This document shows positions 2,974 through 64,000 of a stretch of 64,000 nucleotides of DNA, piece by piece. Source of the DNA: a virus; the IMG/VR virus record IMGVR_UViG_3300042569_002607, positions 1-64,000 of that record; one strand, 5' to 3'. How positions within the stretch are numbered: position 1 is the first letter of the stretch; the number at the start of each line of letters is the position of its first letter. Below the pieces are notes generated by a model. It was not told the origin of the DNA. It searched no databases and saw only the letters and a list, made by a program, of their open reading frames with translations. A program made the translations under genes and the position numbers.

Positions 2974-2992
2974 CCTTGCGCTTTTGGCACGG
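2974..2992 (+). promoter_or_regulatory. Conserved 19-bp intergenic element, structural subtype, copy 1
   Basis: CCTTGCGCTTTTGGCACGG sits in the 43-bp gap between terL and the portal gene, 20 bp before the portal ATG. Identical 19-bp copies occur at 6011 and 24324. It is not a hairpin and has no T-tract. It could be a promoter element, an activator or repressor site, or an antitermination site; which one is not decidable here. Confidence 0.8.
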
Positions 2993-6010: not shown

Positions 6011-6029
6011 CCTTGCGCTTTTGGCACGG
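6011..6029 (+). promoter_or_regulatory. Conserved 19-bp intergenic element, structural subtype, copy 2
   Basis: An exact copy of CCTTGCGCTTTTGGCACGG starts one base after the MuF stop and 94 bp before the scaffold ATG. The 114-bp gap is long for this compact operon, which suggests a transcription start or control point here. Confidence 0.8.
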
Positions 6030-6123: not shown

Positions 6124-6921
6124 ATGCCCGAAATCATTCTCTCGCCCGTCGTCGATTCGCTGGAGACGGTCCCGGAATCCTACCGGGATCTGTATGAAGA
6201 GCGCGACGGAAAGCACATCCTCGGTAAGCCCATTCGCATCGACGACGTCAGCGAGATCAAAGGCGCGCTGGCGAATGAGCGACGCTTGCGACAGGAGCTC
6301 GCCGGCAAAGCCGGACAGCTGCCCGACGAAGTGAAGGTGAAGCTGCAGAAGGCGGAAGAACTCGAGCGCAAAGAGTTGGAGCGGCAGGGGCAGTATCAGG
6401 AACTCATCAAGTCGGCCGAGCAGAAGGCCGCGACCGAGATCCAGAAGTATCAGCAACGCGCGGACCGACTCAGCACCACGCTGACTCGCACGCTGGAGAC
6501 CAATGCTGCCACGAGCGCCATCAATAGTGCTGGCGGCATCGTGAAGGGGCTGCTGCCGCACGTGCTCCCGGAGCTCAAGGCCGTAGAGAACCCCGACCGC
6601 GAGGGAGAATTCACGGTGTACGTGATCGACCCGAAGGCCCCGGACAAGCCTCGGCTCAATCTCAAGACCGGTGAGCCCCTTACGGTCGATGAACTCATCG
6701 CCGAGAAGCGCGAAGACGATGTCTTGGCCAAGCTGTTCAGCGCCTCGCCCGCCACGGGCTCTGGCGGCGGCGGCTCGAACTTCGCGAAAGGCTCCGCGCG
6801 CATCGTGAAGCTGACCGCTGAGGAAGCGAAAGACACGAAGCGCTATCAGCAGCTCAAGGACCAGAAAGCCAAAGGCGAGATCGACGGCGCCATCGATCAC
6901 ATGGGCCGCAAGATCGTCTGA
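6124..6921 (+). CDS. Capsid scaffolding protein
   Basis: This 265-residue protein has a long charged helical region, about residues 45-120 (KVKLQKAEELERKELERQ and onward), typical of phage scaffold coiled coils. Ser/Gly-rich (SGGGGSN) and Lys-rich segments occur near the C-terminus. It lies immediately upstream of the coat gene, the standard place for a scaffold. It would guide coat assembly and then leave or be degraded. Confidence 0.8.
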   Translation: MPEIILSPVVDSLETVPESYRDLYEERDGKHILGKPIRIDDVSEIKGALANERRLRQELAGKAGQLPDEVKVKLQKAEELERKELERQGQYQELIKSAEQKAATEIQKYQQRADRLSTTLTRTLETNAATSAINSAGGIVKGLLPHVLPELKAVENPDREGEFTVYVIDPKAPDKPRLNLKTGEPLTVDELIAEKREDDVLAKLFSASPATGSGGGGSNFAKGSARIVKLTAEEAKDTKRYQQLKDQKAKGEIDGAIDHMGRKIV

Positions 6922-7144: not shown

Positions 7145-8278
7145 GTGGCAACCAACGACATTGGCAATTACAACGAAACCCAGTTTGCGCAGGAAGCGCT
7201 GATTGCGGTGGAGAAGCGACTCGGCATGGCCTCCCGAGTCTATCGCGAGTACGAGAAGGAAACGAAGGAAGTCGGCGACACCACGCAGATCCGCCGCCCG
7301 TCGACCTTCACGTCGCAGGCCGCCCCGTCCGTTGCACAGGACATCAATACCGGCAAGGTCTCGCTCGTGCTCGATCAGCACGAGGAAGTGAAGATCGAGC
7401 TCACCGACAAGCTGCGCGCGCTGTCGAACGAGAAGCTGATCGAGGATCACATCCGCCCGATGGCCTACGCGCTCGCGGACGGCATCGACAAGAAGCTCGT
7501 CCAGCTCGCGATGCAGGTCCCCTGGTTCTACCAGCTGAACGCCACGTTCACGCTGCAGGAGCTCGCGAACGCGCGTAAGGTCCTGTTCGACAATCAGGTG
7601 CCGATGGATCTGCCGAACTTGTTCGGCATGACGGATGGGCAGCTCGAAGCCAACATGCTCGGCTACCTCGCCGGCCAGAACATCAACGGGGCCAACGTCG
7701 ACGACGCGCGGCGTTACGGCGCGCTGGGCCCGCTCATGGGCGTGAACTGGTTCGCCAATCAGAACACGCCCTCGTTCACGACGACGCAAATGGCGGACGT
7801 GGTCGGTGCGACCAGCGCGGCGGCCGCTCGTGGCGCGCGGACGATCGCGATCACGGGCATCGATGCGGCTGGCACGGTCGTGCGTGGCGACACGTTCTCC
7901 ATCGCCGGCCTCACGCAACGCTTCGACGTGGCGGCCGATGCGACGGCCACCGCTGGCGCGATTGCGTCGCTGTCGTTCACGCCGCCCCTCCCGGCGGCGG
8001 TCTCGTCGGGTGCGGTGGTGACCTTCCACAAGATGACCGGCACCAAGGCCGTGAATCTCGTGTTCCATCGCAATTTCGCCGCGCTCAAGTTCGCGCCGCT
8101 GCCGGACGACATGCCCGGCGTCCAGGTCTCCACGATCCGCAACGAAGACCTCGGTCTGTCTGTCCGCGCGCGGATTTTCTACGAAGGCAACAACAGCAAG
8201 CTGTTCGTGGCCCTCGACACGCTGTACGGCTTCACGATGCTCGATGAGAATCTCGCCGCGCGCGTCTACTCTGCCTGA
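7145..8278 (+). CDS. Major capsid protein, P22 coat-like
   Basis: This 377-residue shell protein has an N-terminal half matching the P22 gp5/HK97-fold coat family: EKRLGMASRVYREYEKE near residue 20, then VGDTTQIRRPSTFTSQ, and SLVLDQHEEVKIELTDKL. An inserted beta-rich segment at about residues 230-300 (RTIAITGIDAAGT to FHKMTGT) sits where P22 coat carries its I-domain. The GTG at 7145 is preferred because GAGGAA lies 6-11 bases upstream and the homology begins there; the open frame extends back to 7103. Confidence 0.9.
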   Translation: MATNDIGNYNETQFAQEALIAVEKRLGMASRVYREYEKETKEVGDTTQIRRPSTFTSQAAPSVAQDINTGKVSLVLDQHEEVKIELTDKLRALSNEKLIEDHIRPMAYALADGIDKKLVQLAMQVPWFYQLNATFTLQELANARKVLFDNQVPMDLPNLFGMTDGQLEANMLGYLAGQNINGANVDDARRYGALGPLMGVNWFANQNTPSFTTTQMADVVGATSAAAARGARTIAITGIDAAGTVVRGDTFSIAGLTQRFDVAADATATAGAIASLSFTPPLPAAVSSGAVVTFHKMTGTKAVNLVFHRNFAALKFAPLPDDMPGVQVSTIRNEDLGLSVRARIFYEGNNSKLFVALDTLYGFTMLDENLAARVYSA

Positions 8279-10243: not shown

Positions 10244-10668
10244 CGACGATCGATCCGGTGCAGGCGTGGAGCGAGCACACCGTCGCGATTGTCACCGCCG
10301 ATGCCGAACTCCGCACGCTGATGGGGCGCCCCAGCGGTCTCATCGTGCCGTGGTCCACCTTCACGCTCGACGGCCCGTTGCCGGTGATCTGCTATGCCGA
10401 GATCGCCGGCCCTTCTCCCCTCAGCTCGCGCACCCAGCGCTTTTCCGCCGGGTTCGCGGTCTTCGCCGCGTCGCGATCGCTCGCCAACACGATCTGCAAG
10501 CGGCTCGACAACCTGCTGAAGTACCCGGCCTACGCGGCGCGCGGGGCGGACATCGCGCGCGACCCCGCCTCCCCGGCTGACCGCTCGTGGCCCCCCGCCG
10601 AGCCACGGCAAGATGACGCCGCGCAGTTTCGCGCCGACGTCGACCTCACGTTCCTCGTGCCCGGGTAA
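10240..10668 (+). CDS. Tail terminator protein
   Basis: This 142-residue protein is coupled to the gp10-like gene by ATGA and followed by the tail tube gene. The order and the alternating beta-strand pattern with a final AQFRADVDLTFLV strand fit the DUF3168-like tail terminators that cap the tube at the neck. Confidence 0.65.
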   Translation: MTTIDPVQAWSEHTVAIVTADAELRTLMGRPSGLIVPWSTFTLDGPLPVICYAEIAGPSPLSSRTQRFSAGFAVFAASRSLANTICKRLDNLLKYPAYAARGADIARDPASPADRSWPPAEPRQDDAAQFRADVDLTFLVPG

Positions 10669-24323: not shown

Positions 24324-24342
24324 CCTTGCGCTTTTGGCACGG
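24324..24342 (+). promoter_or_regulatory. Conserved 19-bp intergenic element, structural subtype, copy 3
   Basis: An exact copy of CCTTGCGCTTTTGGCACGG begins 6 bases after a stop and 71 bp before the holin-candidate start. A CCCGAG motif follows at 24357, as in other leaders carrying this element. It marks the head of the lysis cassette. Confidence 0.8.
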
Positions 24343-24677: not shown

Positions 24678-25171
24678 CGGTGCCTACCGCGTTGTCGTTC
24701 CCGATGGCGTCGGTGCCGCAGCTGGCATCGACGCTTTCGTCGACCGCCTCTTCGCGTCCGCGATTCCTCGCGCCGGCCGACGAACTGTCCGTGACGTTCC
24801 TACGCGGCGGGAAGGTCCGCCTCGAACAGCCGATCGTGTTCGCCGATGTCGACGGCATCCACGTCACGCCGTCGGGCGTGATCAGCGATGGCACCACGTC
24901 CCCCGCGCCGTTCTGGCCGTTCCTCGGTCATCGGTTGAGCTACAGCCTGTTCCCGCCCAGCGTGCAGCACGACTACCAGCTCGAGCAGGCCCAACGCCAG
25001 CGTGCGCGCGGTGAGCCACATCAATCCCGTGTCGCCATTGACCGGCGCTCCTATCGCGCGCTGCGGGCATGGGGCAATGGCCGGACTCGCGCAGGGTGGC
25101 ACTACGCCGGCGTGCGCGTCAAGGCGCTCACGGTCGGTCCGAATTGGGATGGGGAGGAGGTCACGTCTTGA
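24674..25171 (+). CDS. DUF1353 family phage protein
   Basis: This 165-residue protein has a GTG start overlapping the holin-candidate stop. The block VISDGTTSPAPFWPFLG followed by SVQHDYQLEQA is the DUF1353 signature (SDG.S.P ... HD). This family is usually found in phage lysis or tail regions. The biochemical role is unknown. Confidence 0.8.
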   Translation: MTVPTALSFPMASVPQLASTLSSTASSRPRFLAPADELSVTFLRGGKVRLEQPIVFADVDGIHVTPSGVISDGTTSPAPFWPFLGHRLSYSLFPPSVQHDYQLEQAQRQRARGEPHQSRVAIDRRSYRALRAWGNGRTRAGWHYAGVRVKALTVGPNWDGEEVTS

Positions 25172-25692
25172 GTACGATCGCCCCTCTTCCGGATCTGGCC
25201 CCGTGGCTGCCGTCGGCCACGGACGCGCGCGTGGCCGCCGTCGTGCGGCACGCCCTTGCGCGCGTTGGCGTGTGTGAAATGCCACTCGGCTCGAATCGCA
25301 GTACGCTCATTGACGAGTGGGCGCGCGAAGCCGGCGCTGAGCTGGGGTCGTTCTGGTGCGCGAACCTTGCCACGAAGGTCTGGCGCGCGGCGGGCCTGCC
25401 CACGGCGGGCAAAGGGAAAGATCCGTCGTGTGATCTGCTGATGCATTGGGCGAAGGATACGCAGCGATGGAGCACGACCCCGGCGCTCGGTGCCCTCGTG
25501 TTCTACGGACCCAACGCGAACGACGCGACGCACGTCGCCGTGGTGGTGCGCTTGTCGCCCGCCGCGCTCGTCGTCGGGGGCAACGAACGCTGGGGCGCGC
25601 TCGCGTCGCGGAATGGTGTCGCCGTGCAGCTTCGCGCCGAACAGCGCACGGACATTCTCGGCTATGCGCATCCGTTTCCGGTGGCCGTATGA
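25168..25692 (+). CDS. CHAP-type endolysin (peptidoglycan amidase/peptidase)
   Basis: This 174-residue protein most likely starts at the TTG that overlaps the previous stop (TTGA), with GGGAGGAGG upstream. The CHAP-like core includes the nucleophile Cys near residue 63 (GSFWCANLATKVW), a His near 121 (NDATHVAVVVR) and VGGNE downstream. It would cut peptidoglycan after holin action. Only a catalytic domain is visible; there is no cell-wall-binding module and no signal peptide. Confidence 0.8.
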   Translation: MSTIAPLPDLAPWLPSATDARVAAVVRHALARVGVCEMPLGSNRSTLIDEWAREAGAELGSFWCANLATKVWRAAGLPTAGKGKDPSCDLLMHWAKDTQRWSTTPALGALVFYGPNANDATHVAVVVRLSPAALVVGGNERWGALASRNGVAVQLRAEQRTDILGYAHPFPVAV

Positions 25693-26810: not shown

Positions 26811-27436
26811 AGTTCCTCTGTCTGCTCCTGCCGTTCCTCATCGGCTGCGGCCGTGTCGAGGCTAGCACCACCGACCTCCCGACCCTCACGGTCGAGATGC
26901 AAGCCGACTCGGCGCGCGTCATCGCGACCTGGCGCCGTCCGTGCGACGCGCGCGGCTGCGCCGATGGCTACCGCGTGCAGTGGACCGCTGGCGCCGTCTC
27001 GCGCCTCCGCACCACGGCGGCACTCGCGGACACACTGTGGGTGCCCCGCCCCTCCGTCGGTGACACGCTCGTCGCGACGGTCGCCGTCACCGCGTCGCGT
27101 CGTGGCATCGTCGGCGCGACGCGCACCGCTACCGCTGTCGTCCGCCATCCCGACGCGCCGCCGCCGGCGGTGGATTCGCTCCGCACGGATACGCTCACCG
27201 TCGAAGGCGCGCTACTCGACTCGTTCCCCGTCGTGGCGGTGCGGGACACGCTGGGCCGCTCCGCCAGAGACCTGCCGCTGTACGGCGCGCTGCGCCTCTG
27301 CGCCCTCGCGCGCAATCGCTACACGGGCCTCGTCACCATTCTCATCCCCGCGTCGATGGCCGAGGACGATGAAACGCGTGAGGCGGAACGCTGCGAGCGC
27401 GCGCGCGCCTCGTACAGCGTCGAGCGTGCCGGATGA
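26807..27436 (+). CDS. Lipoprotein, putative outer-membrane spanin with Fn3-like domain
   Basis: This 209-residue protein has MKFLCLLLPFLIGCG as a lipoprotein signal with lipobox LIGC and Cys14. A fibronectin-III-like domain follows (TLTVEMQADSARVIATW to VVRHPD, about residues 25-125). It occupies the o-spanin position, but typical o-spanins are much shorter. It may span the periplasm with a rigid beta domain. The start at 26807 is fixed by the ATGA overlap and the signal peptide. Confidence 0.65.
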   Translation: MKFLCLLLPFLIGCGRVEASTTDLPTLTVEMQADSARVIATWRRPCDARGCADGYRVQWTAGAVSRLRTTAALADTLWVPRPSVGDTLVATVAVTASRRGIVGATRTATAVVRHPDAPPPAVDSLRTDTLTVEGALLDSFPVVAVRDTLGRSARDLPLYGALRLCALARNRYTGLVTILIPASMAEDDETREAERCERARASYSVERAG

Positions 27437-27990
27437 CGACGCCGAGCCCCGAGACGGTGGCGACGTGGTGGCGCGCGGGGGACTTCGACCGCGCGCTGCC
27501 CGTGCTGCGGACATGGGGCCAGCAGCTGACGCGGCGGCTTCCGGCCGACGTCGCGGACGACGTGTGCGCGACGTTGTTGGTACGCGCATGGCGGTCGCCC
27601 ACGATCCCTGACGACCCGCTGCGGTGGGCCGCGCGCGTCGTGCAGAATTTGCAACACGATGTCCGCAAGCCGGTCTGGAATCGCCCCGGCCGCATCGTGT
27701 CGCTGGAGACCGACCAGTTGGCCAGCGCGTTCCCCGCGCCCGATGCGTTTATCGACGCGGAGCATGACGCGGCTATGGTGCAGCTGGCGCGCGCTGCGAT
27801 CCGTCGCCTGCCCGATGTCACGCGCCGGTGTTTTGTCCTGACCGTGTGGCACGGACAGACCAGCGCCGTCGTCGGCGACGCGCTTGGGCTGTCCCCTGCC
27901 GCCGTGCGGATGTGTGTCACGCGGGCGCGGCGCACCCTCGCGCGCTCGACGCGCCGTGCCGCGCGGCAGCTGTCGGTACTGGCCCGATGA
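27433..27990 (+). CDS. ECF-type RNA polymerase sigma factor-like protein
   Basis: This 185-residue protein has sigma region 2-like helices at about 35-80 (DVCATLLVRAWR, then LRWAARVVQNLQHDVRK) and a clear region 4 helix-turn-helix at about 120-170 (IRRLPDVTRRCFVLTVW, then VGDALGLSPAAVRMCVTRAR). The size and domain order are those of ECF sigma factors. It overlaps the o-spanin gene by ATGA, so it is co-transcribed with lysis genes. It could redirect host RNA polymerase to late promoters; target sites are not proven. Confidence 0.75.
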   Translation: MTTPSPETVATWWRAGDFDRALPVLRTWGQQLTRRLPADVADDVCATLLVRAWRSPTIPDDPLRWAARVVQNLQHDVRKPVWNRPGRIVSLETDQLASAFPAPDAFIDAEHDAAMVQLARAAIRRLPDVTRRCFVLTVWHGQTSAVVGDALGLSPAAVRMCVTRARRTLARSTRRAARQLSVLAR

Positions 27991-28178
27991 CGCTGCGCCT
28001 CCGTGTGCAACCCAAACCGCACAACAAAGTGCGCGTCTCTGTGTTTGTGCCGTGCAACCACGGGCACCACGGCGCGGGCGCGCTCGATCTGCCGGAACTG
28101 CTCTGGCGGACCCTGCTCTACCCCATCCTCACCGCTGGCGCCGCACGGCACGGCGTTACCCTGACACTGGAGCCCTGA
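27987..28178 (+). CDS. Small hypothetical protein
   Basis: This 63-residue protein is ATGA-coupled to the sigma-like gene. A basic beta N-terminus (LRLRVQPKPHNKVRVSVFV) is followed by one helix. It is not recognised. Tight coupling to the sigma-like gene makes a regulator such as an anti-sigma possible, but there is no direct support. Confidence 0.55.
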   Translation: MTLRLRVQPKPHNKVRVSVFVPCNHGHHGAGALDLPELLWRTLLYPILTAGAARHGVTLTLEP

Positions 28179-28603
28179 TGGCTGACGCAATTCTCGACGC
28201 GCACATCGCGCAGCGCCGCGCGGCGCTCGTGGCGGCGTTTCCGCAGATCGACCCGACGCACTACGTCGACGGCGTATTGCAAGACCGCGCCGACCGCTAC
28301 GCGGCGCATCTCGCGACGATGACCATCGCGCCCGACATGGTGCAGTGGGCGCTCACGATGGGGCGCCGCTATGGCCCGTGGGTCAAGGTGCATCACTTCG
28401 TCGCGGACTGGCTCACGGCGCTGCTCATCATCCGCTACGGCGAAGAGCCCGACGCCGCGCGCTCCGACGATCCGAACTTCCACGGCTGGCCGGTGGCGTT
28501 CACGGACGACGATACCGCGCGCGCGAGTGAGTTGCTCGCCGGTACCAAGTGGCCGCAGGCGCTGACGCTGCTGCCGAAGAACCCGCTCGCACAGGAGGGC
28601 TAA
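28178..28603 (+). CDS. Hypothetical protein
   Basis: This 141-residue, mainly helical protein has aromatic residues in the middle (YGPWVKVHHFVADWLTALL). The ATG overlaps the previous stop codon. There is no recognised family. It lies between the lysis/sigma genes and the putative fibre genes. Confidence 0.6.
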   Translation: MADAILDAHIAQRRAALVAAFPQIDPTHYVDGVLQDRADRYAAHLATMTIAPDMVQWALTMGRRYGPWVKVHHFVADWLTALLIIRYGEEPDAARSDDPNFHGWPVAFTDDDTARASELLAGTKWPQALTLLPKNPLAQEG

Positions 28604-28606
28604 GCC

Positions 28607-29038
28607 ATGTCGCAGATGACGGATATCGCCGAGAACGACTTTATCGACGTCTACATTCGCAATCAGGCGAGCGGCAAGCCCACGTCGTGGAACATCCGCC
28701 TGTATACCGCTGCTCCCGGTGAGACCGGCGGGGGCACCGTGGCCAGCTACACCAACTACGCCGACGTCTCGGTCGCCGCGTCGCTCGCTAACTTCGCCGG
28801 CACGCAGGGCGCTGGCACCACGACCGCCAGCACCGGCACCGGTGGCGTCACGTCGAACAACAACGTGCTGACCTTTGGCACGGCGGCAGGCTCCGGCCCC
28901 CAGACGCTGACCCACTTCGCGTGGTGCAACGCGACGACCCCGTGGTACTACGGCGCCCTCACCACGTCGCGCACGATCAACAACGGCGACGTGGCGCCGA
29001 GCTTTGCGGCGGCGGCGTTGACGTTGACGGCGGCGTGA
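28607..29038 (+). CDS. Tail fibre-like protein (Gp80-type domain)
   Basis: This 143-residue protein opens MSQMTDIAENDFIDVYIR and contains the pattern RLYTAAPGETGGGTVASY...HFAWCNA...YYGALTTSRTINNGD. This pattern is common in small phage tail fibre or virion surface proteins. The fold is beta-rich, with Gly/Thr/Ser-rich loops. It is the first of a run of candidate surface genes. Confidence 0.7.
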   Translation: MSQMTDIAENDFIDVYIRNQASGKPTSWNIRLYTAAPGETGGGTVASYTNYADVSVAASLANFAGTQGAGTTTASTGTGGVTSNNNVLTFGTAAGSGPQTLTHFAWCNATTPWYYGALTTSRTINNGDVAPSFAAAALTLTAA

Positions 29039-35162: not shown

Positions 35163-36218
35163 ATGGCTCACGAACTCGACACCCGCGACAACGGCGCCGC
35201 CGCCTTCGTCTCCCTCCGCCAGTCCGCGTGGCACCAGCTCGGCACGATCGCCGCCGACGAAATGACATTCGACGAAGCGATGCATCTGGGCGGACTCGAT
35301 TACCCGTTGGCCCTTCGTCCGCTCACCACGTCGCTGTCTATCGAAGGCGCGAACGGCGACGAAATCGATACGCTCGCGATCGACGTCCCGGGACATCGCG
35401 CCGTAGTCCGCGCGGACCGGAATCTGGTGCTTGGCGTGGTCTCCGATCGCTACGAACTGGTGACGAATCGCGAGGCCATGCAGATGGTGGACGTGCTCGT
35501 GAATGACGGCCTCGCCGTGATCGAAACGGCGGGCGTGCTTCGCGAAGGCGCTGATGCGTGGATGGCGCTGCGCTTCACCGGTGAGCAGATCGACGCGGCT
35601 GGCGAGAACGGCGGCGACGAGATCAAGTTCTACGGGCTGGTTCGCACGAATCACAACGGCAAGGCCTCGGTTCAGGTCGCGACGACCCCCGTGCGGGTGG
35701 TGTGCGCGAATACACTGGCCATGGCGCTGGGCAACGGGCAGACGACGGTCCGCAGCGTGCTCCACATGGGGGCACAGGCACGGAACAAGGTGCGCGACGC
35801 GGCGCAGTCGCTGTGGTCCGGCACGTTGCAGGACGCCGAGAAGATGGCGGCGGCGTTTGCCACGATGCGCCGCACAAGCATTTCCGAAGCGCAGTTCGAA
35901 ACCGCGGTACTCGATGTCCTCTGCCCCATGCCGGCCGAGCCGGACGCCGACGCGTCCAAGCTGGCCCACGCGCTGTTCCCGTCGCGCGTGCTGAAGGCCA
36001 CCGAAACGCGCTTCCGCATTCAGGAACTGTGGATCAGCGGCACCGGCCAGCAGGGCGCGTGCACCGCGTGGGATGCCTATAACGCCTGCACGGAAGCGCT
36101 GGACCACTTCGACGCGGTGACCGTGAAGGGCGAGCGCCTGACGGCGCTCCTGCCGACGGGCAAGCTCGCGCAGCTGAAGGCCACCGTGTTCGATCGCCTG
36201 CTGTCGCTGGCCGTCTGA
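35163..36218 (+). CDS. DUF932 phage/plasmid-like protein
   Basis: This 351-residue protein has NGAAAFVSLRQSAWHQLGT at the N-terminus and FYGLVRTNHNGKASVQVATT with PVRVVCANTLAMAL in the middle. This is the DUF932 (TIGR03299) family common in phages and plasmids. Its function is not established. The ATG follows a CCCGAGGA leader motif; an earlier in-frame start would lie inside the gap. A strong terminator follows it. Confidence 0.85.
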   Translation: MAHELDTRDNGAAAFVSLRQSAWHQLGTIAADEMTFDEAMHLGGLDYPLALRPLTTSLSIEGANGDEIDTLAIDVPGHRAVVRADRNLVLGVVSDRYELVTNREAMQMVDVLVNDGLAVIETAGVLREGADAWMALRFTGEQIDAAGENGGDEIKFYGLVRTNHNGKASVQVATTPVRVVCANTLAMALGNGQTTVRSVLHMGAQARNKVRDAAQSLWSGTLQDAEKMAAAFATMRRTSISEAQFETAVLDVLCPMPAEPDADASKLAHALFPSRVLKATETRFRIQELWISGTGQQGACTAWDAYNACTEALDHFDAVTVKGERLTALLPTGKLAQLKATVFDRLLSLAV

Positions 36219-38561: not shown

Positions 38562-39205
38562 GCGGCACGGGCAAAGTCGACAACGACTACTTCGGCGCGA
38601 AGCTGGCGCTGCGTCGGTACTTCCTTCGCACCTACCACGCGGGGCAGACCACGAAGGTGTTCGATGCGTGCCAGGCGACAGGACAATTGTGGAAGACCCT
38701 GCGCCAGGAGTTCGCGGTCTCGTACTTCGGCGTGGATCGTACGCCGCAACCCGGACGCCTGCAGATCGACTCGGCGCGAGTGCTGGCCACGCCCGGGTGG
38801 TCGTTCGACGTGATCGACGTCGATACCTACGGCGCTCCGTGGACGCACTGGGAACAGATTCTTCGGCATGGCCGCGCGCCGGTGTCGGTGTTTCTGACGA
38901 TCGGTTCGACGATGTTCAACGGGAGCACCGACAACGTCGCGCTACGCGCGATTGGCCTCGGGCCGATCATCAGCAAGATCCCGCCGTCGTTTCGCCGCCG
39001 GCTTGACGAACTTGGCGTAGATTATTGTCTGGCAATGAGTTACACTTACCGCTGGCGCGTGGTTGACGCACAAGAGGCACCCCGTGGACGGTCTGCGCGG
39101 TACCTCGGTCTCCACTTGGTACCCGAGGCTGTCGGCACGTCCGTGCCAAACCCGCAAGCGACCGGACACCACCCGGCGCCTGCGTCACCTTTCCCGAGGA
39201 CCTGA
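38558..39205 (+). CDS. Methyltransferase-like protein (Rossmann core)
   Basis: This 215-residue protein has a GTG start overlapping the ParB-like stop. TKVFDACQATGQLWKTLRQE (motif I-like, with a degenerate glycine loop), SYFGVDRTP (motif II-like acidic strand end) and FDVIDVDTYGAPW (motif IV position) suggest a class I SAM-methyltransferase fold. A standard catalytic DPPY/NPPY is absent, so it could be inactive or a different enzyme. Coupling to the ParB-like gene suggests joint function. Confidence 0.6.
   Translation: MSGTGKVDNDYFGAKLALRRYFLRTYHAGQTTKVFDACQATGQLWKTLRQEFAVSYFGVDRTPQPGRLQIDSARVLATPGWSFDVIDVDTYGAPWTHWEQILRHGRAPVSVFLTIGSTMFNGSTDNVALRAIGLGPIISKIPPSFRRRLDELGVDYCLAMSYTYRWRVVDAQEAPRGRSARYLGLHLVPEAVGTSVPNPQATGHHPAPASPFPRT
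39141..39158 (-). promoter_or_regulatory. Conserved intergenic-type element, GGG subtype, minus strand
   Basis: The minus strand reads CTTGCGGGTTTGGCACGG, a perfect match to the GGG subtype. It overlaps the last codons of the methyltransferase-like gene and lies 50 bp before the DUF5131 start; a CTTTCCCGAGGA leader lies between. It is oriented against the gene it precedes. Confidence 0.75.
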
Positions 39206-39207
39206 AC

Positions 39208-40098
39208 ATGGCAGAAGGCTCAATCATCGCGTGGACCAATCACACCCTGAACCCGTGGATGGGGTGTCTCAAGATCAGCGACGGCTGTAAGAACTGTTAC
39301 GCCGACACGCTGGTCACCAATCGCATGAAGCTGAACGTGTGGGGGCCTGCCTCCACAACCACGCGTAAGGTGACCAGCGCCGCTATCTGGGCGAAGCCGC
39401 ACAGCTGGAATCGCGCCGCCGCAAAGGCTGACGAGGAGACGTTTGTGTTCTGCGCGTCGCTCTGTGACGTCTTCGAAGATCATCCGGTCGCAGACGCCAC
39501 GCGGCCACGTCTCTGGGACGTCATCCGCGCTACGCCGCATCTCACCTGGCAGCTCTTGACCAAACGTCCTGAGCGCATTGCGGCACACCTGCCAGCGGAT
39601 TGGGGTGAGGGCTGGCCCCACGTGTGGCTCGGCACGTCGATCGAGGACATGCGCGTGGCGAGTCGCGCGGATCATCTGCGCCGCGTGCCGGCGGTGGTGC
39701 GCTTCATCAGCTACGAGCCGGCGCTCGGCCCGCTCGACGATCTCAACCTGTCCGGCATCGATTGGGTTATCTACGGCGGGGAGTCGGGACCCGGGTATCG
39801 AGCGCACGATCTCGCGTGGCCGCGCGTTATGCGCGATCGCTGTGCCGCGGAAGGCGTTGCCTTCTTCTTCAAGCAGTCGGCCGCGCCGCGCACCGAGATG
39901 GGCATTCGACTCGACGGAGAGTTGATCCGCCTCTGGCCAACGCCACGCACGGTGCAGCATCCGTCTTTTCCGGACTACCGACCAGCCAGCATTCGCCGCA
40001 CCCCGCCGGATAAGGACTACTCCCCGCGCTACTCCACAACGACACCGGCGGAACCGCCGGCGCTCGGCGCCGAGATAGCGGAAGGGCTGCTGCTGTAG
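39208..40098 (+). CDS. DUF5131 (phage Gp37/Gp68-like) protein
   Basis: This 296-residue protein opens IAWTNHTLNPWMGC with Cys20, Cys27 and Cys30 (GC-x6-C-x2-CYA), reminiscent of a radical-SAM or iron-sulphur cysteine cluster. It continues with WQLLTKRPERI, WLGTSIED and DWVIYGGESGPGYR, the DUF5131 signature. The enzyme activity is unknown. It is usually encoded with ParB-like proteins, as here. Confidence 0.85.
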   Translation: MAEGSIIAWTNHTLNPWMGCLKISDGCKNCYADTLVTNRMKLNVWGPASTTTRKVTSAAIWAKPHSWNRAAAKADEETFVFCASLCDVFEDHPVADATRPRLWDVIRATPHLTWQLLTKRPERIAAHLPADWGEGWPHVWLGTSIEDMRVASRADHLRRVPAVVRFISYEPALGPLDDLNLSGIDWVIYGGESGPGYRAHDLAWPRVMRDRCAAEGVAFFFKQSAAPRTEMGIRLDGELIRLWPTPRTVQHPSFPDYRPASIRRTPPDKDYSPRYSTTTPAEPPALGAEIAEGLLL

Positions 40099-41073: not shown

Positions 41074-41685
41074 ATGACCGCTTTCTTTGCCGCCTACACC
41101 GACGCCATGATCTGCGCCGTCGGCACGTCGCCCGCCGAGGCCATCGCGACCGCTCGCCGCGAGATGCAGGAGCCGGACGCCGAGCTGGAGACGGCGCGCA
41201 TTTCCGAGACGCTGGCCGCGTACATCGCCAGCGGTCACACGCCCCGCCGCTGGGACATCGTCGGCGGCTCGCTCATCGACACGACGCACGCCGATGCCGA
41301 CGCCGATTTCGTGCGGTGCGACTCCGACGCGGGCGACGGCGGGTGGTCGCTCCACGCGCCGGACAGCACGGACGAGGATATTGCCGAGGGGCTCGCGCTC
41401 GAACTGGCCAGCGGCACCGGCAAGCCCACGCGGGAGGACTACGACCTCGCCCGGGCGCAGATGGCGAGCCCGGCCCGCGCGTCGACGTGGGCGCTTCGGC
41501 GCCTCGTCGCCGCCTCCGGCCTCACGCCGACCGAGCTGTCCCGCGTGCTGGGCCGCGATGACCGCACGATGCGCCGCTGGCTGTCGGGGGAGCAGGACGT
41601 GCCCGACACGCTGGCGCAGCAGGTCGCGCGGCTCCGCGTCACGGCGGTGGACCCGGAGTGGGTCCACCTGACGTATCGCCGCTGA
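41074..41685 (+). CDS. HTH-domain protein, probable autoregulator
   Basis: This 203-residue protein's N-terminal 130 residues are acidic and unrecognised. The C-terminus has a helix-turn-helix (ALRRLVAASGLTPTELSRVL, then GRDDRTMRRWLSGEQDVP) of the XRE/Cro type. The ATG is chosen because it follows CGAGGATACCGAG and the promoter at 40979. The upstream palindrome makes autoregulation plausible. Confidence 0.65.
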   Translation: MTAFFAAYTDAMICAVGTSPAEAIATARREMQEPDAELETARISETLAAYIASGHTPRRWDIVGGSLIDTTHADADADFVRCDSDAGDGGWSLHAPDSTDEDIAEGLALELASGTGKPTREDYDLARAQMASPARASTWALRRLVAASGLTPTELSRVLGRDDRTMRRWLSGEQDVPDTLAQQVARLRVTAVDPEWVHLTYRR

Positions 41686-42485
41686 TGGCGCGACCGAAAG
41701 CCACGGTCCCGGACGAGCCGCTCCCGAGCGAGGACTACATCACGCTGTTCGACGGGCAGGGAGCGAGCCCGTCGCGTGGCTACATGCTCGCGATGACGAT
41801 GGACGGCACGCACCGCAAGGTGTGGCACGGGGTCGCCAAGTACGGATCGTGGGCGGCGGCGCTTGCGGCCGCGCGTCAGGCGCGGGAAATCTGGCTGGCG
41901 ACGCGCGACCCGCAGGATGCCGTGCCCGGCCGGGGGAAGCGGGCGCATACGCGCGGGTGTCGGTATGACGCAGTGCGGCGGCAGTGGGTCGCACGCTGGA
42001 CCGATCCCATCGTGCGGCGCCTGTACTCCGTCGGCTGTGGCGACGGCGAGGCCGGCCGGGAGCGTGCCCACGCACTGCGCGCAGAGGCCGAATCCCGGAT
42101 TGCGTCGCATCGCCCGACGATGGACCTGGTGCCGCCGAGGGGACGGGCGCCGGCGATCCGGCGCCAGACGAAAGAGGCGCTGACAGAGCGGTTGGCCGAT
42201 CTCCAGCGCAAGATTTGGGCGCTCAAGTCGGAGCAGCACCGGGTGCGCCTGAGCCTGCGCGCGCTTGAGGGCGACGACGGGCCAGCGCCGGCCATGCCGC
42301 AGCACGAGAGCCGCACGCTCCGCGCCGAGGTCGCGCGCATGTCGCGGGCCGGGTACAGTGTGCGCGACATCGCGTCGCATCTCGGCATCACCGAGCGCGC
42401 GGTGTATTCGCACCGGCACAAGGCGGGGGTAGCGACGCCCAGAGCGGAAACGCCGGGCGAGCCGCAGCCGCCAGACGGGGGTTGA
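41685..42485 (+). CDS. AP2-like plus HTH DNA-binding protein
   Basis: This 266-residue protein is TGATG-coupled to the HTH gene. Two AP2-type units are visible: HRKVWHGVAKYGSWAAALAA (about residues 42-65) and RYDAVRRQWVARWTD with the following strand and helix (about 90-130). Near the C-terminus is an HTH (VARMSRAGYSVRDIASHLGI). AP2 domains in phages occur in homing endonucleases and regulators; no nuclease motif is seen, so a regulator is more likely. Confidence 0.65.
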   Translation: MARPKATVPDEPLPSEDYITLFDGQGASPSRGYMLAMTMDGTHRKVWHGVAKYGSWAAALAAARQAREIWLATRDPQDAVPGRGKRAHTRGCRYDAVRRQWVARWTDPIVRRLYSVGCGDGEAGRERAHALRAEAESRIASHRPTMDLVPPRGRAPAIRRQTKEALTERLADLQRKIWALKSEQHRVRLSLRALEGDDGPAPAMPQHESRTLRAEVARMSRAGYSVRDIASHLGITERAVYSHRHKAGVATPRAETPGEPQPPDGG

Positions 42486-44235: not shown

Positions 44236-45290
44236 ATAGGGTTCGGGTGAACGGGGAACTGTTGCAGCTGGCTCGCCAACGCGAAGGGCTGACGCAGACG
44301 ATGCTTGCCGAGCTCAGTGGAGTTGGGAGTCCGCTGATCTCTCGCGTGGAATCGGGCCTCGTCACGCACCTGCCAGAGGAGTCCGCACGCAAGTTGGCTG
44401 ACGCGACGCATGTGAGCGTGCGGTTTTTCGATAAAGACCCTACGGTGCGCCATCTCGGCTTCCATCGACTGTATCGTCTTCAGCGGAAAGTCGGCGTTCG
44501 CGCACTTGAGCGTCTTGAAAGCGAGATCAACGCACGTCGGCTTCACATAATCAGCCTGCTCAAGAAGTTCGACGTGGAACACGCGATGCCGTTGCCATCT
44601 CGCTCAGACTTTGAGGGCCTATCGCCGATGCAGGCCGCTCAGGAGATCCGCCGGATGTGGCTTGTAAAGCGCGGAGTCATCGGCCCCATCACGCCGTTAC
44701 TCGAGGCGGCAGGCATTCTCGTTGTTGAGGTCGATGTTGCAGAAAAGGCATTCGAAGGACTGGCGGTTCACGCCTTCGATGGCATTCCACTCGTTTTCGT
44801 TCGCAAGGGGCAAACCGCTGATCGGCGACGCTACACGCTCGCACATGAGCTGGCACACCTGCTGCTGCATCAGTCGACGACAGAAGAACAGGAGAAAGAA
44901 GCCGAAGAGTTCGCGGCCGAGCTGATCATGCCCGAAGAATATGCTCGGAATCTGTTGGCAAACTTCACCATCCAGAAGGCGCTGGAGCTCAAAGCTCGCT
45001 ACCAGATATCCGTACAGTTCTGCATCATGCGCGCAGCACAACTCGAACTCATCGGAAAAGACGAGAAGACGAGGCTGTTCAAGTATGTGTCCATGAAAGG
45101 CTGGCGGACCGAGGAACCGTATGCGATGCCTCCGGAACGACCGACCATCCTCAGTGACATTCTACGTTCAGTCATCAAGCAACTCGCCTATACGGTTGAA
45201 GAGCTCGCAGACGAGTTCGGCGAAACTCCAGATCGAGTGCGTGATTACTTCTTCACGGAAGATCAACCCAATCGCCTCCGCTTGGTGTGA
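44232..45290 (+). CDS. HTH-ImmA/IrrE family metallopeptidase
   Basis: This 352-residue protein has a GTG start overlapping the upstream stop. An XRE helix-turn-helix is at about residues 8-60 (ARQREGLTQTMLAELSGVG). A zinc peptidase core near residue 204 has TLAHELAHLLLH (HExxH) with the third ligand likely in EKEAEEFAAELIMP. ImmA/IrrE proteins cleave or inactivate repressors. Here it may control this module or phage induction, or form a toxin-antitoxin-like or defence module with its partner. Confidence 0.85.
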   Translation: MNRVRVNGELLQLARQREGLTQTMLAELSGVGSPLISRVESGLVTHLPEESARKLADATHVSVRFFDKDPTVRHLGFHRLYRLQRKVGVRALERLESEINARRLHIISLLKKFDVEHAMPLPSRSDFEGLSPMQAAQEIRRMWLVKRGVIGPITPLLEAAGILVVEVDVAEKAFEGLAVHAFDGIPLVFVRKGQTADRRRYTLAHELAHLLLHQSTTEEQEKEAEEFAAELIMPEEYARNLLANFTIQKALELKARYQISVQFCIMRAAQLELIGKDEKTRLFKYVSMKGWRTEEPYAMPPERPTILSDILRSVIKQLAYTVEELADEFGETPDRVRDYFFTEDQPNRLRLV

Positions 45291-55493: not shown

Positions 55494-55503
55494 AAATGCA
55501 ACG

Positions 55504-55548
55504 CTCAGAGCCACAGATCGGGATTGAACCGATGACCGCATCGTTGGA
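55504..55548 (-). other. Putative attP core: 3' half of a tRNA gene
   Basis: Eleven bases after the integrase stop, the minus strand carries a perfect T-arm (ATCGG-TTCAATC-CCGAT) followed by CTGTGGCT as an acceptor 3' strand. No matching D-arm or anticodon stem precedes it, so this is a tRNA 3' fragment, the usual attP core of phages that integrate into tRNA genes. The tRNA identity is not determinable from this part. Confidence 0.7.
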
Positions 55549-55593
55549 GAAATCGGACGAATCGCGGGCTTCCCTCTGTCGCACCCCGACTCG

Positions 55594-55610
55594 CCTTGCG
55601 GGTCTGGCAC
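55594..55610 (+). promoter_or_regulatory. Conserved element, GGG subtype, variant inside the att region
   Basis: CCTTGCGGGTCTGGCAC matches the GGG subtype with one change (TCT for TTT) and then diverges. It lies between the attP core and the arm-like repeats, 109 bp before the next gene. Confidence 0.6.
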
Positions 55611-56636: not shown

Positions 56637-56654
56637 CCTTGCGGGTTTGGCACG
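56637..56654 (+). promoter_or_regulatory. Conserved element, GGG subtype, at the head of the replication operon
   Basis: CCTTGCGGGTTTGGCACG begins one base after a stop codon in a 165-bp gap, 146 bp before the next start (56801). The inverted repeat CCAGT...ACTGG (56686-56700 region) follows. It sits where a helicase/initiator operon promoter would be expected. Confidence 0.75.
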
Positions 56655-63404: not shown

Positions 63405-64000
63405 CTTCACGCCGTTTGATCGGCAGCTGCTGAAACTCGCGGCCGAGTCGGCGTCGGCGGTGGCGAAGACGGCGAAGAAGGCGGCGCAAAAGGCGTATCT
63501 CACCGCCGCCGAATCCGAAGCGCATGAGATGGAAGGGTACGCGGACGAGGCGATCCGCTTTCTGAACAATCCCGACGGCATCGTGGAAGAGAGTGCGACC
63601 GACGACGCCACCGAGGAGGAGCGCAAGGAGGCCGTGCAACTGATGTTCGGCCATCGCGCGGCTCTCCGCGTCGGTTGTCTCATCCTGATCAAGGATGCCG
63701 AAGGGTTGATCGAAAAGCAGACCGAGATCTTTGCCGACTCCGACGGGACGCACGAACGCGTGAAGGATTTCCGTCGGCTCGAGTCTCGGCTGCGTGGCAT
63801 GAACAGCGATCAGACCGAGCTGCCGCTCCCAATCAAGGATCCCGACGCCGCCCCGTCCGAGGCCGCTGCCGACGAGGACGCGGAGATCACCGACGGTCCG
63901 CTCGGCCCGTTCGATGCGCCGCCCGTTGCCGCGCCGCTGGCCCTTGGCTCTGGGACCGCGGATCCCATCGACATCCCCGATGCCGAATTCGAAATCCTCG
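63388..64000 (+). CDS. Hypothetical protein, 3'-truncated by the window
   Basis: ATG 63388 opens a frame with no stop to the window end (204 codons). The first 140 residues are helical and charged (SASAVAKTAKKAAQKAYLTA, then LIKDAEGLIEKQTEIFADSD). After that comes an acidic, Asp/Ala/Pro-rich, disordered stretch. Coiled-coil parts suggest an oligomer or scaffold. Not recognised. Confidence 0.65.
   Translation, partial: MANTFDFTPFDRQLLKLAAESASAVAKTAKKAAQKAYLTAAESEAHEMEGYADEAIRFLNNPDGIVEESATDDATEEERKEAVQLMFGHRAALRVGCLILIKDAEGLIEKQTEIFADSDGTHERVKDFRRLESRLRGMNSDQTELPLPIKDPDAAPSEAAADEDAEITDGPLGPFDAPPVAAPLALGSGTADPIDIPDAEFEIL

Follow-up and report, generated by a model that had tools for sequence, protein, structure and literature searches.

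Genomic context of the sigma factor gene

The operon considered here contains genes for an endolysin, DUF1353 and DUF6527 proteins, an Rz-like protein, an ECF-type sigma factor, a conserved protein without assigned function and a Gp80-like fibre/virion protein (Table 1). It belongs to the 73,670-base IMG/VR virus record IMGVR_UViG_3300042569_002607, whose positions 1–64,000 make up the 64,000-base stretch analyzed in this work (the window; genome G000 in the comparisons below). The record encodes a terminase, portal, capsid, integrase, Sak4-like protein and DnaB-like helicase and, judged by this gene content, the virus is an integrase-bearing (temperate) tailed phage. Directly after the integrase gene, at 55494–55600, the reverse strand carries GGTTCAATCCC, which by eye resembles the T-arm context of a tRNA 3′ end and is perhaps an attachment site; neither ARAGORN nor Rfam reported anything there. 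Other recognizable products include a DUF932 protein (35163–36218), a DUF5131 protein (39208–40098) and an IrrE-like M78 peptidase (44628–45290).

Table 1. Features of the sigma factor locus and the repeated elements in the window
Feature	Position	Strand	Remarks
Element TTGCGCTTTTGGCACGG, ahead of portal gene	2976..2992	+	tested as sigma target; unsupported
Element TTGCGCTTTTGGCACGG, ahead of gene at 6124	6013..6029	+	exact 17-base repeat
Element TTGCGCTTTTGGCACGG, ahead of lysis operon	24326..24342	+	exact 17-base repeat
Endolysin (CHAP; PHROG 9589)	25168..25692	+	86% identical to endolysin of sigma carrier G006
Rz-like protein, N-terminal membrane anchor, 193 aa	26229..26810	+	homologues by tblastn
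Exported "NRYTG" protein, 209 aa	26807..27436	+	ATGA overlap with sigma gene; lipobox LIGC in window phage only
ECF-type sigma factor gene (P0001)	27433..27990	+	ATG start, 185 aa; region 2 at about aa 18–80, linker, region 4 at about aa 112–170
Small ORF, 63 aa	27987..28178	+	ATGA overlap with sigma stop codon
Conserved gene, function unassigned	28178..28603	+	marker of the syntenic locus in relatives
Gp80-like fibre/virion protein (PF23140)	28607..29038	+	conserved next gene; Pfam match

The sigma ORF is present exactly as a preliminary description of this DNA had given it. Its start overlaps the end of the NRYTG gene by ATGA, its stop overlaps the start of the 63-aa ORF in the same manner, and the Rz-like and NRYTG genes are joined by an overlap of the same type. 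Inspection of the upstream sequence revealed neither a good Shine-Dalgarno sequence nor a promoter belonging to the sigma gene itself. Because of the overlaps on both sides and the lack of a good Shine-Dalgarno sequence, translational coupling of the sigma gene to its neighbours is plausible, which agrees with one half of the earlier proposal that it is coupled to the spanin genes. The other half, the spanin identity of the gene immediately upstream, is insecure: considered as the outer-membrane partner of a two-component spanin, its product matched no spanin family in Pfam or PHROG and, since its relatives have no lipobox, the label is weakened and has to be considered doubtful. The Rz-like protein, also without a family match in Pfam and PHROG, is a possible inner-membrane spanin. 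The 63-aa ORF had no family match either, and an anti-sigma character of its product was unsupported by every test made. A homology of this ORF to a small ORF of the phage fragment G002 seemed possible by eye and was unsupported on comparison.

Assignment to the ECF-type sigma factors

Region 4 was the most readily recognized part of the protein. The Pfam model Sigma70_r4_2 matched the window protein above its cut-off (E 6.5e-08; 32.5 bits against 25.7) and was found in all four members of the family assembled in this work. The general ECF model TIGR02937 (sigma70-ECF) covered aa 18–171 with E 1.2e-08 and 34.7 bits, which is under the curated value of 42.9, and matched each of the four members with a best E of 2e-13, while TIGR02983 covered aa 39–173 (E 9e-11, again under the curated cut-off) and the "RNA polymerase sigma factor" family PHROG 1740 covered aa 42–171 (E 4e-05). 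Region 2 was more elusive. Of the region 2-like and region 4-like helices that had been proposed initially, only the latter could be confirmed with Pfam in the window protein itself, which is the one family member without a Sigma70_r2 match; the other three were matched at E ≤ 1 (best 3e-05), and a profile restricted to region 2 of the four members recovered it by matching the ECF sigma factor SigL with E 8e-06. A search of PDB with the whole family profile retrieved sigma factors only, with SigL as the best match (E 2.8e-13) spanning both domains, and ECF sigma factors also ranked top in a phmmer search of PDB with the window protein.

The layout agrees with a two-domain ECF protein, a class of about 160–220 aa: 185 aa with two helical parts joined by a linker, and neither region 1.1 nor region 3. 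A family search of the adjacent genes recognized no anti-sigma factor; this does not exclude ECF membership, because none was found for the sigma factor of phage Privateer either (PMC7881722). At the level of sequence family, the product is established as an ECF-type (two-domain sigma-70) sigma factor, and the earlier reading of an ECF-type sigma gene within the lysis operon is borne out by the Sigma70_r4_2, ECF and region-2-only profiles. The detection of region 4 alone by Pfam in the window protein would also suit a late activator similar to RinA or ArpU, which resembles region 4 and is no sigma factor at all, but this is hardly credible in view of the detectable region 2 in the family, the ECF profiles spanning both domains and the lack of any ArpU or RinA family match in Pfam and PHROG. 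Another Sigma70_r4-like match in the window, at 42351–42425, was rejected as a sigma candidate, as it belongs to a 266-aa protein (41685–42485) with a C-terminal HTH_23 domain and a sub-threshold Sigma70_r4 match.

Two AlphaFold models of the protein, based on a single sequence and on three sequences, were both of low confidence (pLDDT 55 and 60), and both had the ECF order of helices. In Foldseek searches with these low-confidence models, the best PDB matches of the first were ECF sigma factors, and the best BFVD matches of the second were phage ECF sigma factors, including the GAP52 protein K4F9S8. The outcome is favorable to the sigma fold, for which structure prediction had been suggested as a check, within the confidence of such models. 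Since the window protein is the most diverged member of its family, lacks the C-terminal extension carried by its relatives and has a region 2 below Pfam detection, it may have lost promoter binding.

Relatives of the sigma factor and of its upstream neighbour

No close relatives of the window sigma were found, either with peptide patterns in viral and genome contigs or by tblastn against phages. Diverged relatives were reached through the neighbours: the Gp80-like gene and the conserved gene preceding it, used as queries, led to G001 and G002, whose sigma factors are 34–37% identical to the window protein and are encoded at the same place, ahead of homologues of these two genes. A profile built with the two additional sequences then led to G005 and G006, which are identical over 16 kb, and to the end of G007. 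G006 has 46.6 kb and looks near complete by gene content; G001, G002 and G007 are fragments. Together with the window phage, the gene is thus conserved in four phage lineages, the three others (G001, G002 and G006) being uncultivated and having it at the junction of lysis and fibre genes, and the occupation of this junction by relatives of 34–36% identity indicates that the gene has been retained. The sigma gene of G006 likewise shares four bases (GTGA) with the gene preceding it. The same phage shares with the window an endolysin of 86% and an integrase of 62% identity, compared to only 28% for the portal and 25% for the capsid protein, so that the sigma locus evidently moves between mosaic phages. 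Two other relatives, G003 and G004, possess the flanking genes and no sigma gene. Queries with head morphogenesis and capsid proteins brought no further relatives beyond G003. Among isolated phages only weak matches to unannotated faecal contigs were obtained, and the phage isolate collection contained no close relative of the family; many unstudied phage homologues are present in BFVD.

The protein encoded immediately upstream is a member of a small family characterized by a hydrophobic N-terminal stretch and by an NRYTG motif that is invariant among its members. Its gene lies near the sigma gene in the window phage, G001, G002 and G006, and is absent from the G003 and G004 sequences; a pairing seen in four phages against two is suggestive only. 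The co-occurrence covers four lineages, of which two or more have head modules that look unrelated, and both genes are missing from the two relatives. The LIGC lipobox occurs in the window copy, and the three homologues have no early cysteine. As an exported protein without a cytoplasmic part, it is not a typical anti-sigma factor. The two genes might still form one module of the lysis cassette, in which an envelope-facing protein and a coupled ECF sigma would time or tune lysis or fibre expression according to the state of the envelope, although we regard this as improbable.

Repeated elements and their relation to the sigma factor

The preliminary description had also named conserved elements at 2974, 6011 and 24324 and tentatively joined them with the sigma factor into a dedicated late-transcription programme. 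The elements are real: three exact copies of the 17-mer TTGCGCTTTTGGCACGG begin two bases further on (Table 1), and the window contains 10 sites with up to three mismatches to it, compared to a mean of 2.3 in shuffled sequences, none of which (0/100) reached 10. An alignment of eight window sites with seven sites of G003 gave a common 16-base core, TTGCG[C/G][T/G]TTTGGCACG, followed after about 8 bases by a weakly A/T-rich stretch. This arrangement may be read as TTGCGC in the role of a −35 element, a conserved spacer after it and then a poor −10 region, and the sites are probably promoters; the copy heading the lysis operon is the probable promoter of the operon containing the sigma gene. A sigma-54 reading of the GGCAC part was rejected, as the aligned sites have no GC at the −12 distance. 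Apart from the three exact copies, the core sites of the window are located at 56639, 59343 and 61128 on the plus strand and at 39141 and 61244 on the minus strand. The core exists in two versions, with C-T before the portal, gene-8 and lysis genes and with G-G elsewhere in the genome.

The link between the elements and the sigma factor was lost in the comparison with the sister phage G003, which is collinear with the window gene by gene (78% identity of the major capsid protein, 66% of the terminase and 62% of the portal). The same three gaps carry the element in G003: at 10431 it lies between the terminase and portal genes, at 7415 it precedes the gene-8 homologue and at 63794 the lysis operon. 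Both Pfam and the family profile detected no sigma gene in this phage. Conversely, no copy of the element with up to two mismatches was present in the sigma carriers G001, G002, G005, G006 and G007 (G001, G002 and G007 being fragments), and at three mismatches two sites each were found only in G005 and G006, which is no more than with a control pattern. Elements without sigma in one phage and sigma without elements in the others indicate that the two are inherited separately. Furthermore, the sigma gene is located about 3 kb downstream of the element heading its own operon, so that a sigma acting through this element would be needed before its own synthesis and would face a start-up problem when turning on its operon from zero.

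The late-transcription programme tying the sigma factor to the elements was abandoned on these grounds, and a late-gene switch reading TTGCGCTTTTGGCACGG in front of the operons for head, tail and lysis is very improbable, even though the elements are real and situated before late operons. Phage sigma factors running late genes do exist: for gp36 of phiEco32 and gp47 of 7-11, which are ECF-type factors from the Kuravirus-like group, action on late promoters of the phage has been demonstrated experimentally, but in the phiEco32-like phages the sigma gene belongs to a middle-gene cluster and is separate from the late genes (PMC8948821). When one genome contains both a sigma gene and a repeated motif resembling a promoter, the two are easily joined into a story; in this case the sister genome disagrees.

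The non-coding gaps of the sigma carriers yielded no common target motif, a weak negative result in view of how far the proteins have diverged. A trial of bipartite motifs and of classical ECF promoter patterns in these gaps also showed no notable excess.

Proposed role of the sigma factor

With a probability of about 0.58, the product is a true ECF-type sigma factor that is made late together with the lysis proteins and serves as an accessory specificity factor, and not as the switch of a late programme. Judged from gene position alone, the protein would be translated late from the lysis operon, its gene being coupled to the neighbouring ones. Binding to the core of the host RNA polymerase and to a −10 element would fall to region 2, and binding to a −35 element to region 4; a part of the polymerase pool might thereby be diverted, in late infection or following induction, towards a few promoters. 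Candidate targets are the later fibre genes or genes of the host. The copies of TTGCGCTTTTGGCACGG that precede the operons for head, tail and lysis would most likely be ordinary promoters or control sites that are read without the sigma.

Lysogenic conversion, with the sigma acting on genes of the host either in the lysogen or in the course of infection, is a rather unlikely alternative with several facts in its favor, namely the integrase of the phage, the accessory nature of a gene that is missing from sister phages and the existence of phage sigma factors acting on the host (PMC9429907). The location of the gene speaks against it: it is embedded in a late operon, overlaps both neighbours by ATGA and has no promoter of its own that could be seen, and an operon of this kind would be expected to be off in a lysogen.

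SigN (ZpdN) of the Bacillus subtilis plasmid pBS32, a sigma factor of a mobile element, has a toxic effect. In a similar way, the phage protein could mainly withdraw core RNA polymerase from the host sigma as a late shut-off or killing factor with little promoter specificity. Its coding place among the lysis genes and the failure to find a target motif in the carriers would fit, but the best conserved part of the protein is region 4, the −35-binding part, which a pure competitor could do without, and we consider this explanation unlikely.

Comparison with known systems

ECF sigma factors of phages have already been described for the Kuravirus-like phages and Privateer (PMC8948821, PMC7881722); the window sigma is a further one, with an unusual position and a possible partner gene. 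Like gp36 of phiEco32 and gp47 of 7-11, with homologues in GAP52 and Privateer, the window sigma is phage-encoded and small and has two sigma domains; as for Privateer, no anti-sigma factor was found. It has no close sequence relation to gp36: hhalign of a three-member alignment against gp36 gave a probability of 33%. Furthermore, in contrast to the middle-gene cluster location in phiEco32 and 7-11, it is encoded in a lysis operon, the conserved late elements do not track it, and the phiEco32-type co-occurrence of a sigma gene with a late promoter motif was not seen among G001, G002, G003, G005, G006 and G007.

The best full-length profile and PDB matches were to the actinobacterial SigE family (TIGR02983) and to SigL of Mycobacterium tuberculosis, respectively, from which the window protein differs in remaining under the curated cut-offs and in having no recognized anti-sigma neighbour. 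The likeness to SigN of pBS32 is by description, both being encoded on mobile elements, albeit on different replicons. With the sigma factors of Bacillota phages, which alter sporulation (PMC9429907), it has in common a phage gene for a sigma-70 family protein that possibly acts on the host; in contrast to those factors of endospore development, it is of the ECF type and belongs to unrelated phages. Among the ECF sigma factors known from phages, those acting as middle-gene switches in lytic phages have received the most study. A conserved ECF sigma at the end of the lysis cassette of integrase-bearing phages, untied to the late promoter-like elements, suggests that phages also put sigma factors to a different use.
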